This document shows, in pieces, positions 1,451 through 37,719 of a stretch of DNA of 37,719 bases. A program made the position numbers and the translations under genes. Location: the IMG/VR virus record IMGVR_UViG_3300032086_004785, positions 1-37,719 of that record. One strand, given 5' to 3'. This stretch comes from a virus. The notes under the pieces were generated by a model. It was given only the letters and a program-made list of their open reading frames with translations. It did no database searches and was not told the origin of the DNA. Every line of letters starts with the position of its first letter. Within the stretch, counting starts at the first letter, position 1.

Positions 1451-4400
1451 TGTCTAGAGATATTCTTAGAAATACTCTTGAAAATACGTATGCGAATAAA
1501 GGGCTCGACGCCTTAAAAATATTAAGACAATCAGGATATGACAGAGACTACATTGAAGAGACCGGACCATACTTGGCAAAAGTTCTAAGAGTTGAGCCTC
1601 TCGTTGGAACTGATACATGGGTAGATGGTGCTGCTGTCAATGCTGCGATTGATTTCGACAAAAAAGGAAAGCCATACAATCCCCTAGAGCCATATTCTAA
1701 ATCTTATGTTGTTACGGCTCGTATTTCTAGTATGGAAGGAAGACAAATAGGTATACACGATTATCTTCCAGAGCCGGAACAATTAGGTACAAAAAAAGAT
1801 TTAGAAGGAGATTTTAAATCGGAATCTGCTATTTTCAATCATGATTCTTTTGTACCTCAAAGTTTAGATTTACCCGCCCCGGAATTGGGAAGTTATATTT
1901 GGGTTGATTACCTAGATAAGCAAAACCTTGCAGATGGAATATATATCAGACCAATGGTTCCAGGCGATTCGTTTGCTTTTAAAACCAAGGATGACCCTTG
2001 TCCGCCCCCTTATCCTACTAAAGGCAAAGGAGCGAACGGCGCTGCCACTGGCAAAGGAGAAAAAAATCCTGGCTTAGGTAAAAACAAAGGACAGCCAAAG
2101 CCCGACGCAGTTGTTCCTAAATTAAAAGGTTACAAATTAGAAGATTTTACAAAATCTACTTCGTTTAATGCAGATCCAAAAAAACAGAATCTTCTTAAGA
2201 TAGTTGGCGTAGCTGAAGTTATAACTATGTTTTTTAATGTTTTGTATCCTAAAGCAGATATAAAAGTTGTTGCACCAACCACGGCACGAGACAAAACTGA
2301 AATAGAACAACCAGAACTAACACCCAAGGAAGCTGCAAAATTTCATTACACAGGTTTGGCATTAACAGTTGAAGTTCATAAAGACAACACTCCTATGCCA
2401 AAAGAAGAAATATATGCAGCAATGATGCTATTAATTTTAAAAGGCAAGTTGCCTCCAGGCGGCTTGGGGTTTTTTCAAACAAACACAGGAGACGGAACCA
2501 ATAAAGATAAAACTACTACTTTAGGCACTGACTCAAAAGCTTCAGGTTTTCCACACTATGATTTACGAGAGGGAACAGGCAACTATTGGGTAGTCTCAAC
2601 AAAAGACGGCAAGCAAGTTCTTGATGGAAAGGTGACTAACATAAACAACTGGATTAATCTTTCAAAGAAAAAAAGAACAAATTTGCCACCTCATGTGATG
2701 ACTGAATATGTAAAAATAGCAAAAAAGATGCCTCCATCTTTTCCAAATTTAAATACTACTCTTGCAGCTATTGAACAAAAAGAAAAATTTCCATCTAATA
2801 CTGGAACACCTGCTGATGAAAAAACAGCAGGAGAAAAGCCCCCTAAAACAGAAGAAAAAACCGAGAAGACTCTTCCAGCCGCCATACAGAATAAAATACA
2901 ACTTCTTAACATCCAGCTTGCCATGCATAACAATATCTCAAGCCCCGCAGCCAAAGCCCAAGCTGAAAAAATAAAAGCTCAAATAGAAGAGCTTAAAAAA
3001 CAAGCAAAGCCAGAAACAGAAAATAATAAAGAAAATAAAGACAAAAAAGAAAAAGAAGATAAAGATAAAACAAAAAAAGATCAAACTCCTAAAAAAGTTC
3101 CTGTTGCAAAAGTACCGTGCCCAGATGACGATGGAGATGGAGGAGCAGGTGCTCAAGATTTAACGAAAGGTACAATTGGAAAAACTGCTGGCACACCTCC
3201 TACTAATCAAGTAAAAAGCGAAAAAAACATAATGCAACATATTGGTGAAAAAAAACATTTAAATGATTATTTCAAAAAAGACGGAAATAAATTAACAATG
3301 TTTGTTTTGCATTATACCGCAGGCTTCGGTACAGCCATCTCCGTAGCAGCCAAGAGGAAAAAGCAGATAGAAGATGCAATCGTCGCCAATAACGGTGTAA
3401 ACAAAGACATTGAAAAAACTACATCTTATACTGTGCATCTTTGGATGGGTCGCGCAGGAGAATGGTTTCAACAAGTTGATTTTATGCATAAACTTGGACA
3501 TGCATCTTGTTTAAACAGTGTTTCAGTAGGAATGGAAAATATTCTTGTTGGGTTCTCAACAAGCAAAAAAACAATAGCAGACCGCCTCACCGCGTGGGAG
3601 CACTGGATAGGAAAATACGGCTCAGTTGCTCCAGAACTTTTTCAGAAAGGTCTTTTAGGGTTTTCTCCGTCCAGTACAGAAACTTGTTTTGGTTTACCAA
3701 GTTTAGCGCAGTGTGAAGGAAACTACAGAATGTGCAAATGGCTTACAGGTTTTCAAGGTCTGGGGAAAACAAGGAAACAAGGTCCATATCCACCAAAATA
3801 TATGAACATACCTATGGCTTTCCCTGCAACATCTAGTTCTGACAAAAGACTTAGCGTTTTTAATAAGCCTGCTTTTAAAAACAAGAATGTTTTTATTTGG
3901 GGTAGAGTTGATTTAAATAGATCAGATGGAAAAGGAACCGGTTCCCTCAAGCAGAACTCTTCAAATGACTTTTGGGAAGCTCGCGTTTTTAAAAAGGGCT
4001 CGCTTAGGAGCTTGCCAGAGAAAAGGCAAAACTGGCATCATGGAATAGTCGCTCACACTAGATTTCCAACACACGGTGATGGTCATTTTTTTGAATTTTA
4101 CGTACTAGGGAGAGTTTTGGGCTTAAGCGCAAAAGATGCTTATTTTGCTAGTGTAGCTGCTGCATCACATAGAGCAGTTAAAACACATGGACCTTTAGGG
4201 GGAAGATCCAATGCCGGTTTGACATTTTGGCCAAATTATAAAGGAAAAACCAACGTTGGCAACGCAAAAGGTTATGTTGCAGCCGGAAAGGCAATGTGGG
4301 CGATGTCAGGATTGGACAATACAGATTTAAATAGTCATTGTCCAAGAACAAGTTTGTTCGACAAAGCTAAATTTGAAGAATGGAGAAAGAGTAAAAAAGG

Positions 4401-35397: not shown

Positions 35398-36600
35398 ATG
35401 GCTTTACACAAATTTGGACCAAACGATCTTTTTGTCAGCGCAATAAAAGCCTATCCTAAAGTTAATTTCTTTATTTATTCTGGTTCTTATTATTACAATT
35501 ATCAAACAGCGCAGTCTGGCACTTGGTCTGACCCTGTAAAAAATGTTCCTGTTGGTAATATTAGCCTTTATGAACTTAATATTGATAGACCTTCAGACAA
35601 TCTTATTTATCCTTTTGTTACAAAGAACAGTAGTTTAGATGTCTTTAGCACAGTAAGTACTGATTCTTATATGGGTTTTAACTACGGCGATGTTATTAGT
35701 GGAAGTTATCCTCTTTCTGCTACTATTGATAGAAGGTTTTATCTAGAATACACAGGCGATCTGCCAATCCCTTCTACAAATGTGACTTATCGCCCTCACA
35801 TAATGGCGCTTAAAAATACCACAAATGATTATATGAGATTGAGCCCCCATTATGAATATTCTGCATCTCAAGATAATCCACTGGGAGGTTGGAATAAAGA
35901 TAATCAAATGATCACGATGATAAGTATTCCATCCATTTTTTATGGATCATCAATAAAAAAAGGCTCAGTTGATTTAAAATTCTATACAACAGGTACATTG
36001 GCAGGTCAATTAACAGACTATTATAAAAACGGAGAACTTATACAGTTTTCAGGAGCAGTATCAACTAATGATGGCAAATGTGCTGGCGTCGTTCTTTATG
36101 ACCAAGGAGTTATTTTATTAACAGGCTCTTGGACTATTTCTGGTCATACTGAAGAATATCGAGGAGGTGCTACAGCTTATAATCCTGCTTGGGTTTATTT
36201 TGGAGCTTCCGGCACAGCAGCAACTGGCTATCTTAGACAATCAAGCTTTACTATGGATTTTAAAGGAACGCAAACTGTACCAACCATTACCATGTTAGCT
36301 CATGCTCCTAAAAATACTTTAAATAATTCTTCTAATCCTACTTTTGTACAAAGCAGTTCACTAGCAAATACTGTCTTTACATCCTCCGCTATTTACGAGG
36401 AATATGATAAAAATTTAGTTAAAAACATTGTAAAAAGCCCTTATAATAACTACACTGCAAGCTTTCAACGTGAGACGTACATATCAGAGATTGGAATATA
36501 TGATGACGATAAGAACTTAATTGCCATTGCCAAGCTTGCTACTCCAATTAAAAAAACTGAAGAAAGAGATTTTACGTTCAAGTTAAAGGTAGACATTTGA
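35398..36600 (+). CDS. Virion structural protein, paralogue B (shared C-terminal domain)
   Basis: A 400-aa protein of nearly the same length as its upstream neighbour. Matching motifs are SSIKKGSVDLKFYT, GVVLYDQGVILLTGSW and the end YISEIGIYDDDKNLIAIAKL, then P-I-K-K-T-E and a basic final strand. The N-terminal 150 residues differ from paralogue A. The two genes therefore look like an old tandem duplication or two proteins with a common attachment domain and different outer parts. No strong ribosome site is seen 10 bases after the previous stop. Its TGA overlaps the TTG start of the resolvase gene. Confidence 0.72.
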   Translation: MALHKFGPNDLFVSAIKAYPKVNFFIYSGSYYYNYQTAQSGTWSDPVKNVPVGNISLYELNIDRPSDNLIYPFVTKNSSLDVFSTVSTDSYMGFNYGDVISGSYPLSATIDRRFYLEYTGDLPIPSTNVTYRPHIMALKNTTNDYMRLSPHYEYSASQDNPLGGWNKDNQMITMISIPSIFYGSSIKKGSVDLKFYTTGTLAGQLTDYYKNGELIQFSGAVSTNDGKCAGVVLYDQGVILLTGSWTISGHTEEYRGGATAYNPAWVYFGASGTAATGYLRQSSFTMDFKGTQTVPTITMLAHAPKNTLNNSSNPTFVQSSSLANTVFTSSAIYEEYDKNLVKNIVKSPYNNYTASFQRETYISEIGIYDDDKNLIAIAKLATPIKKTEERDFTFKLKVDI

Positions 36601-37130
36601 TTTTAGGTTTAGATGTAAGCACAAGCATTACAGGAATAACAATACTTGAAAAAGATGGAACTCTTGTTTATAATGATTGTTGGGACACAAGAAAATTTAA
36701 AAGTTTTTTTGAGAAGGTAGAATACGTTGAGCAGCAAATTAATAACCTTAATAAACTTTACGGAAAATTCGAAAGAGTATTTATCGAAGAATCTTTACAG
36801 ACTTTCAGATCTGGATTCTCCTCCGCAAAAACTTTGTCAACTCTCGCTCGTTTTAATGGCGTTGTTTCATGGCTTGTATATAGAATACTCAAGAAACAAC
36901 CAGAATACTTAGCAGCCACATCAGCAAGAAAACTATGCGGTATTAAAGTTCCAAAAGGAACTAAAGCAAAACAAGTTGTTATTCAGTATATTCTAGATAA
37001 TGTCCCAGAAATCAAAATAGAATACACAAAGCAAGACAACATCAAGCCTCATTGCTATGATAAGGCAGATAGTTGGGTTATTGCTAAAGCAGGGCTTATA
37101 CAATGTCAACAGGAAGAAAAACTTGAATAA
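36597..37130 (+). CDS. RuvC-like Holliday-junction resolvase
   Basis: A 177-aa protein, about the length of bacterial RuvC (173 aa). It has the RNase H-fold acidic residues in RuvC order: Asp6 in ILGLDVSTSITG, Glu64 in VFIEESLQTF, and Asp155 and Asp158 in HCYDKADSWVIAKAG. The start must be TTG 36597, which overlaps the upstream TGA (TTGA); AAAGGT at 36585-36590 is the ribosome site. No ATG could give an intact first motif. In phages such resolvases debranch replication products before packaging, the job of T4 endonuclease VII (gp49). Finding it in the late structural operon suits that timing. Confidence 0.85.
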   Translation: MILGLDVSTSITGITILEKDGTLVYNDCWDTRKFKSFFEKVEYVEQQINNLNKLYGKFERVFIEESLQTFRSGFSSAKTLSTLARFNGVVSWLVYRILKKQPEYLAATSARKLCGIKVPKGTKAKQVVIQYILDNVPEIKIEYTKQDNIKPHCYDKADSWVIAKAGLIQCQQEEKLE

Positions 37131-37138
37131 AATACATT

Positions 37139-37400
37139 GGTGCTTATATTCTATATAAGATAAGGAGTGAGGCGGTATTACGCAGGGTTCTACTGAGATG
37201 ATATACGACCCAGACCAAGAAATAAGAGTCTTAAAAGGGAATACTTGGTCGCTTGCAGGTGAAAATCCTGCCATTCCTTCAAATGAAGATACCCCGATTG
37301 TAAGGATGAAGCGGGAGAGGGATAAACTCCATGATTGCTAATCTGCGGGTGGGACTGGAAACAGTCAGTTAGGTGGGTTGGTTGCCTAACACCTTTTTAG
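37139..37400 (+). promoter_or_regulatory. Structured RNA leader, cobalamin-riboswitch-like
   Basis: The 281-bp gap between the resolvase gene and the last gene is densely structured. In order it contains GGTGC (37139-37143), a 7-bp hairpin (37143-37159), TTAAAAGGGAA (37231-37241), a stem with seven-base loop GCAGG-TGAAAAT-CCTGC (37255-37271), CCCCGATTGTAAGGATGAAGC (from 37292), CTCCATG (37327-37333), GGTGGGA (37348-37354) and a GACTG-GAAA-CAGTC hairpin (37353-37366). These blocks follow the order of the cobalamin riboswitch core ('TTAAAAGGGAA', 'GGTGaaAATCC', 'CCCCGC..CTGTaA', 'CCAcTG', 'GGTGGGAAgg'). Deviations are an enlarged P4 and a weak match to the canonical Thr/Cys-Ala-type 'CCACTG' box. 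A GGG/CCC helix (37237-37239 with 37292-37294) and TACTT/AAGATA would form that larger P4. Another structured RNA class remains possible. Confidence 0.42.
37368..37398 (+). terminator. Terminator-like hairpin ending the structured leader
   Basis: GTTAGG (37368-37373) pairs with CCTAAC (37385-37390) around an 11-base loop, followed after ACC by five T residues (37394-37398). It lies just before the ribosome site AGGAGAG and ATG 37412. This is the position expected for a riboswitch expression platform that stops or releases transcription. AGGTG 37371-37375 with CACCT 37390-37394 is an overlapping alternative pairing. Confidence 0.45.
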
Positions 37401-37405
37401 GAGAG
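37399..37405 (+). promoter_or_regulatory. Ribosome binding site AGGAGAG
   Basis: AGGAGAG lies 6 bases before ATG 37412 and immediately follows the T-run of the hairpin at 37368-37398. It supports the chosen start of the last gene and places its translation under possible control of the leader fold. Confidence 0.6.
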
Positions 37406-37411
37406 AAGAAA

Positions 37412-37719
37412 ATGAGTTGTCCAAGATACGTTGTAGAAATCAAACTCTATGGAACAGATTGCAGATACACTTGGAAAATGAAGACAAGAGTTGGAGATCA
37501 TAAAGGCTTTCAAAAAGAAATGGAAGTGTTAGCAGAACGTGGTGAATTTGAAAGAATCTCCGAAGGCTTCGTAAAACACAATGGCGGGTTAGCGAAGATA
37601 GAAAGAGAATGGTTCAAGAAAGTCGCAGAACAGAAAGAAATAAACAAGATGGTCGATGAAGTTGAATCTGCCGCTGTTAAAGCAGCACATAAAGTAATGG
37701 AACAATACAGCGAAGCATT
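37412..37719 (+). CDS. Unknown protein, N-terminal part (runs off the window)
   Basis: The frame is open from ATG 37412 to the end of the window, giving at least 102 residues starting MSCPRYVVEIKLYGTDCRYT. The first 40 residues look like a small beta-rich unit with two Cys (positions 3 and 17). The rest is charged and helical (ERISEGFVKHNGGLAKIERE, then 'DEVESAAVKAAHKVMEQY'). A good ribosome site precedes it. No family is recognised, so the gene gives no independent support for cobalamin control. It is the first gene downstream of the structured leader and hence its presumed target. Confidence 0.7.
   Translation, partial: MSCPRYVVEIKLYGTDCRYTWKMKTRVGDHKGFQKEMEVLAERGEFERISEGFVKHNGGLAKIEREWFKKVAEQKEINKMVDEVESAAVKAAHKVMEQYSEA

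Follow-up and report, generated by a model that had tools for sequence, protein, structure and literature searches.

The window analyzed here (the whole stretch of 37,719 nucleotides, positions 1-37,719 of the IMG/VR virus record IMGVR_UViG_3300032086_004785, a 37.7-kb contig) is packed with genes, late-sigma-like and baseplate-wedge-like genes among them, and has one sizeable gap. This non-coding gap of 281 nt (37131-37411) is bounded by the end of a RuvC-like ORF at 37130 and by the ATG of the next ORF at 37412. What does it encode? A first-pass annotation, which had correctly singled out the gap, read it as a riboswitch-like leader of the cobalamin class and offered a new structured RNA class as its fallback. 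The fallback fits the evidence: as judged from comparative sequence analysis, the gap is a conserved, modular, structured leader RNA, previously undescribed and outside Rfam 15. The ORFs that cross it, a reverse-strand frame (36993-37274) and a 5' extension of the next ORF, were considered for a coding role and rejected; compensatory changes lead the gap to be read as RNA instead. The RNA feature extends from about 37163 to 37398, and its overall layout is indeed riboswitch-like, with a promoter, a folded RNA, a terminator-like hairpin, a ribosome-binding site (RBS), and an ORF:

36597-37130, plus strand: RuvC-like resolvase ORF (phrog_159, E = 3e-8), the upstream neighbor of the gap
37123-37150, plus strand: weak sigma-70-like promoter, TTGAAT-16-TATATT, scoring 9/12
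37163-37279, plus strand: module A, tRNA-like domain (consensus fold, covariation, MFE, covariance-model matches, tRNA-model match of a homologue)
37281-37390, plus strand: module B, three hairpins (alignment, covariation, stem replacement)
37303-37345, plus strand: module C, a plug-in at the apex of the first hairpin (P1) of B (present/absent comparison; many homologues are without C)
37368-37398, plus strand: third hairpin (P3) of B and U-run, terminator-like, beside the RBS (terminator scoring)
37400-37719, plus strand: RBS (37400-37405) and small ORF with its ATG at 37412, which runs off the contig (ORF list)

In five relatives (L002-L006), a primase-like ORF overlaps the 3' end of the RuvC-like ORF and there is no gap. 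Since the next ORF follows directly in these RuvC relatives, the leader and its ORF look inserted in the window.

Homologues and Module Combinations

Through exact-pattern searches from the region, close relatives of the window's leader were detected in about 40 IMG/VR phage contigs, which are fragments from uncultured phages. The leader was absent from 50,697 phage records (INPHARED, blastn) and from GTDB genomes (two exact-pattern scans). Among 42 records scanned with covariance models, 36 had a match to B at E<=1e-7 and 24 a strong match to A, counts that are not prevalences, as the contigs were partly chosen with those same patterns. Of the 11 new loci returned by a degenerate pattern, one (L149) is a true copy and another (L152) just a terminator-like hairpin, with the other nine unrelated; 20-mer matches in L008 and L017 proved to be chance, inside a coding gene.

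The modules (A, 117 nt; B, about 70 nt without C; C, 43 nt) occur in several combinations. ABC is found in the window, L007, L009, L018, L019, and others; AB in L023, L027, L029, L033, and L100; BC in L013, L016, and L045; B alone in L011, L089-L099, and L149; and A alone in L011 and L013. This natural set of A, B, AB, BC, and ABC amounts to a deletion series, so that the role of each module is testable in a reporter. L011 (4035-4100) and L020 (after P3) also share an extra hairpin module, GTTGCTTTTTATG...CATAAAAGCAAC, between B and the ORF.

Unrelated small ORFs follow one and the same module set, with no single gene class downstream, and members of one ORF family follow AB, B, BC, and ABC copies; the family of the window's own small ORF is likewise found behind other module combinations. 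Several contig pairs share little or nothing except the leader. The stretch shared with the window is 74 nt at 96% in L045, 115 nt at 87% in L075, and 256 nt at 86% in L018. Across 3.7 kb the thyX-type contigs L089 and L090 match at about 73%, and in the 28-nt B core a single base separates them. Among contigs over 10 kb, leader copies lie no more than 2 kb from a contig end in 14 of 32, vs. 3.2 expected, a crowding that repeats or hypervariable cassettes breaking assemblies would explain.

Promoters and Downstream ORFs

A promoter scoring at least 9/12 (best site) is present in the 55 nt upstream of 18/21 A-first copies and 8/14 B-first copies, and in most homologues it lies just upstream of the first module and is much better than the window's. 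In B-first copies 6-7 nt separate the end of the -10 box from AAATGAAG. By the spacing of these predicted promoters, the RNA would start at or very near the first base of the first module. B-only copies before thyX-type genes, plus some others, have no good promoter directly upstream. In most copies an RBS and an ATG follow about 20-30 nt past P3.

These loci have other features too. In L089, L090, L093, L094, and L099, a thyX-like gene (named by eye) follows the B-only copies, and a second hairpin, TTTTGCCC...GGGCGAA, near the RBS replaces the U-run. The N-terminus MKITKRQLRxIIREA, or a similar one, is carried by many otherwise different ORFs (L011 3391-3720, L013 13090 on, and G017).

Module A Resembles a tRNA

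Module A and module B were each aligned from 18 sequences, several of them closely related. Covariation in aligned homologues, the check proposed at the outset, was found in both modules, and in each case 0/500 shuffles reached the score. For A, RNAalifold gave five helices, all of which are present in the window's minimum-energy fold:

37163-37169/37272-37278, plus strand: acceptor-like stem (consensus fold)
37172-37174/37181-37183, plus strand: D-like stem (consensus fold)
37185-37189/37207-37211, plus strand: 5-bp stem (consensus fold)
37213-37219/37244-37250, plus strand: long arm (consensus fold)
37255-37259/37267-37271, plus strand: T-arm (consensus fold)
37260-37266, plus strand: T-loop TGAAAAT; TTCAAAT, TTTAAAC, and TGAGAAC in homologues (alignment of A)

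Compensatory double changes occur at 8 of the 27 pairs (34 double-change cells vs. 9.2 in shuffles), and 99.0% of cells are paired, a figure that drops to 35-45% in slid controls. Three helices carry this covariation: the acceptor-like stem, the long arm, and the T-arm. The remaining two are nearly invariant; like module C and P1 of B, they vary too little for covariation to speak for or against them.

The order of these helices follows the layout of a class II tRNA, namely a 7-bp stem, 2 nt, a 3-bp stem, 1 nt, a 5-bp stem, a long arm, and, stacked straight on the first stem, a 5-bp T-arm whose loop has 7 nt. A thus has in common with tRNA (RF00005) an acceptor-like stem, a 3-bp D-like stem, a long variable-type arm, and a T-arm with its T-loop, joined by the same connections. 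The acceptor-like stem and T-arm covary, and nearly every copy retains UNNRANY in the T-loop; positions 2 and 3 of this loop drift, which fits the missing D-loop GG of A. The covariance model of A matches genuine tRNA genes in these phages, and for the A copy of L026, RF00005 is the best among 4227 families, at full length (23.1 bits, E 0.0079). This best homologue nevertheless falls under the family cutoff of 29. In contrast to tRNA, A lacks an anticodon loop, with a 17-nt loop where the 7-nt anticodon loop belongs, and it has neither the D-loop GG nor CCA. ARAGORN detected no ordinary tRNA gene in the window. As far as its predicted fold tells, A is tRNA-like and not a tRNA, and it is probably derived from tRNA as a plug-in domain without an anticodon. 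On the minus strand of L019 (~4168-4220), an apparent 5' half of a tRNA gene, with the 3' half absent, lies directly upstream of A.

Modules B and C

Module B contains three hairpins:

37291-37296/37346-37350, plus strand: P1
37353-37357/37362-37366, plus strand: P2
37368-37373/37385-37390, plus strand: P3, with a conserved G/T-rich loop

With C excised from the rows that hold it, 5 of the 12 counted pairs of B covary; in P3, 5 of 6 pairs do. Whole stems are replaced with pairing kept, in 10 distinct versions of P2 and 8 of P3, and the P3 loop stays TGG..GGTTG-like across phages. The first 28 nt of B are nearly invariant, and covariation is therefore no test of P1. A U-run is present in 13/20 distinct B forms and absent in 7/20, so termination is not universal.

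At 486-560 of L024, the P1 apex carries an insert other than C (hairpin GCAGC...GCTGC), which indicates that the apex accepts various plug-ins. B opens with a mini-ORF, ATGAAGTTACCCCGNTTGTAG (MKLPRL; MKIPRL in the window, 37283-37303), which in B-first copies lies some 2 nt from where the transcript probably starts. It varies little overall, and in L020 and L045 its stop codon is gone. Two further candidates were rejected. GTTAGGT...GCCTAAC recalls the core boxes of an integron attC, but on inspection the order is reversed and the stem freely replaced; a pairing between TACCC and the P3 loop, as in an antiterminator, has only 3-4 bp and is unconserved.

The Cobalamin Reading

The first-pass annotation had based its class assignment on short blocks and on three proposed helices. 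The blocks exist (AGTC, 37227-37230; GATT, 37296-37299; GCAGG/CCTGC, 37255-37259/37267-37271), but of the helices only GCAGG/CCTGC, the supposed P5, is genuine, and it is the T-arm of A. AGTC-GATT, the supposed P3 of the cobalamin core, is ruled out as a conserved pair by the separate occurrence of A and B and by the variation in GATT. In place of the proposed P4, the CCC run pairs with 37346-37350 and not with the GGG at 37237-37239. The wider impression that the gap is structured is confirmed: the comparative evidence beats chance, while the folding energy gives a z of only about -1.7.

Scanning with Rfam, RF00174 and RF01689 included, produced no cobalamin match at the gathering score and none at E<=10 with permissive filters. 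No riboswitch family of any kind reached E<=10 in the gap region under those filters, no Rfam 15 family exceeded its cutoff anywhere in the window, and the cobalamin families were absent from the homologues tested against Rfam. The supposed core blocks vary and sit in separable modules, and form no single continuous aptamer. For instance, GGTGAAAATCC, the block that constitutes the T-arm, reads GGGTTTAAACCCC or GGTTCAAATCC in homologues, and GGGAA becomes AGGAA.

Module A Inside a tmRNA

In G017 (L075/L160), A sits within a tmRNA gene (717-1192; RF00023, 97.2 bits). ARAGORN returned nothing at this locus, and the flanks joined without A yielded a tmRNA with the tag ANNNYFYDSARLAA; with A in place, a standard finder overlooks the gene. 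When A was folded together with its tmRNA flanks, it made its own domain, and the other ORFs of G017 are phage-like by eye. As this single case demonstrates, A is not bound to the role of a leader.

The insertion site is the apex of a hairpin that reads AAATGGCTACCCTCGTTGTATGAGGTGG in the tmRNA of G008, where it resembles the first hairpin of B (AAATGAAGTTACCCCGCTTGTAGCGGGTGG). The B model compared with single tmRNAs gave E 0.023 and 0.011, with a shuffle p of 0.018 for G008 and 0.12-0.15 for the others. These values are suggestive of a resemblance between B and a hairpin of these phages' tmRNAs, weaker than that of A to tRNA. Three further phages have tmRNAs (L159, 1501-1877; L161, 1501-1902; L162, 1501-1840, minus strand). 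ARAGORN reports the tags ANNNYHYNSVALAA in L159 and ANDNVELNYAQAA in L161; the L162 tmRNA is over the Rfam cutoff, yet receives no ARAGORN call. The leader is thus linked to tmRNA (RF00023) in that these phages encode tmRNAs and A is inserted in one of them at a hairpin like P1 of B. It differs from tmRNA in having neither a tag reading frame nor tmRNA ends, and the window has no tmRNA match.

A Proposed Mobile Leader Cassette and Its Alternatives

The explanation in which we place moderate confidence is that the leader belongs to a horizontally shuffled promoter-leader cassette of uncultured large phages, which controls a small ORF in cis and is built partly of tRNA/tmRNA-like parts. The cassette would comprise the sigma-70 promoter, the leader, the terminator-like hairpin with the RBS, and the small ORF, and would be shuffled among phages and genes, with the leader presumed to act in cis. 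Its tRNA-like 5' domain could bind a host factor that handles tRNA or tmRNA (RNase P, EF-Tu, and the ribosome are candidates) or, alternatively, could shield the 5' end of the transcript. The last hairpin of B may gate either transcription or the access of ribosomes to the ORF, which lies 20-30 nt further on, and C is a second plug-in module. More tentatively, phages may have made tRNA-/tmRNA-like domains into interchangeable plug-ins, such that A, in leaders or in a tmRNA, recruits the host tRNA/tmRNA machinery to the transcript; if true, this would define a new class of mobile parts for regulation at the RNA level. The leader represents a structured RNA family missing from Rfam, suggests the use of a tRNA-like mRNA leader by DNA phages, and shows that a single closed RNA domain turns up both in leaders and within a tmRNA.

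A stand-alone small RNA (promoter, A and/or B, and P3 as terminator) could instead act elsewhere in trans, for example as a tRNA decoy or as a binder of RNase P or the ribosome, with the ORF as a passenger or reached by read-through. The terminator-like P3 with its U-run, the U-run behind A-only copies, and a second promoter-like stretch before the ORF in L024 and L091 (the latter two from sequence reading) would agree with this, as would the ability of A to stand as a closed domain in another RNA, the tmRNA. We consider it unlikely, given the RBS and ATG that follow P3 in most copies and the B forms that are without a U-run.

A riboswitch for a ligand other than cobalamin, in which A and/or B bind a small molecule and P3 toggles between terminator and open states, would account for the aptamer-like character of A, whose two large loops are almost invariant and whose stems covary, and for the terminator-like P3. 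It is improbable in view of the variety of genes downstream, the occurrence of A within a tmRNA, and an inspection that found no conserved alternative pairing. Still less probable is an RNA that modifies its own RNA polymerase so that early operons are read through terminators. HK022 put is a precedent (PMC9378689), and the location at the very start of transcripts and the conserved loops on hairpins are in keeping with it; on the other hand, A and B are independent of each other, and neither the B copies before thyX-type genes nor the A copy in the tmRNA lies at a promoter. There is a very slim chance that the element serves mainly recombination, as conserved DNA for the exchange of small ORFs with an incidental RNA fold. 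While the shuffling and sharing of the cassette among contigs and its crowding at contig ends are consistent with this, helices are preserved by compensatory changes as the sequence changes, which plain homologous recombination does not need. The cobalamin riboswitch first proposed (RF00174, RF01689) deserves practically no credence, since short blocks in a similar order, judged by eye, are set against the lack of any Rfam match, unconserved blocks, and modules found apart.

Comparison with Known Systems

The leader cassette has its nearest counterparts among other mobile elements. PeSLs reportedly are mobile regulatory cassettes of T4-like phages, a view said to go back to Arbiol in 2010 and Comeau in 2014. 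PeSL cassettes are reported to be units of a promoter and a stem-loop/terminator between small ORFs that mediate modular shuffling (PMC4503421). Most copies of the leader, though not all, likewise combine a promoter with a terminator-like stem-loop between small ORFs, and the same cassette is present beside different genes, as expected of shuffling. Past the promoter, the leader has some 75-250 nt of conserved RNA that includes a tRNA-like domain and plug-in modules, and in this it differs from PeSLs as reported. As to a sequence relation with the PeSLs of T4-like phages, no blastn match to the leader was found in 50,697 phage records.

HK022 put differs from the leader in size and architecture. 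Like the leader, it is a phage RNA at the start of an early transcript (PMC9378689). Rickettsia palindromic elements, which occur in tmRNA and RNase P RNA genes, resemble A in being closed RNA-like inserts, of 105-146 bp, that are tolerated in a tmRNA gene (PMC2229807). These elements are long stem-loops that also occur in ORFs, whereas A is a multi-helix tRNA-like domain found mostly in phage mRNA leaders. To our knowledge, neither PeSL cassettes nor Rickettsia elements have a tRNA-like leader module. Built on an RNA family absent from Rfam, the leader is best regarded as a type of mobile regulatory cassette.
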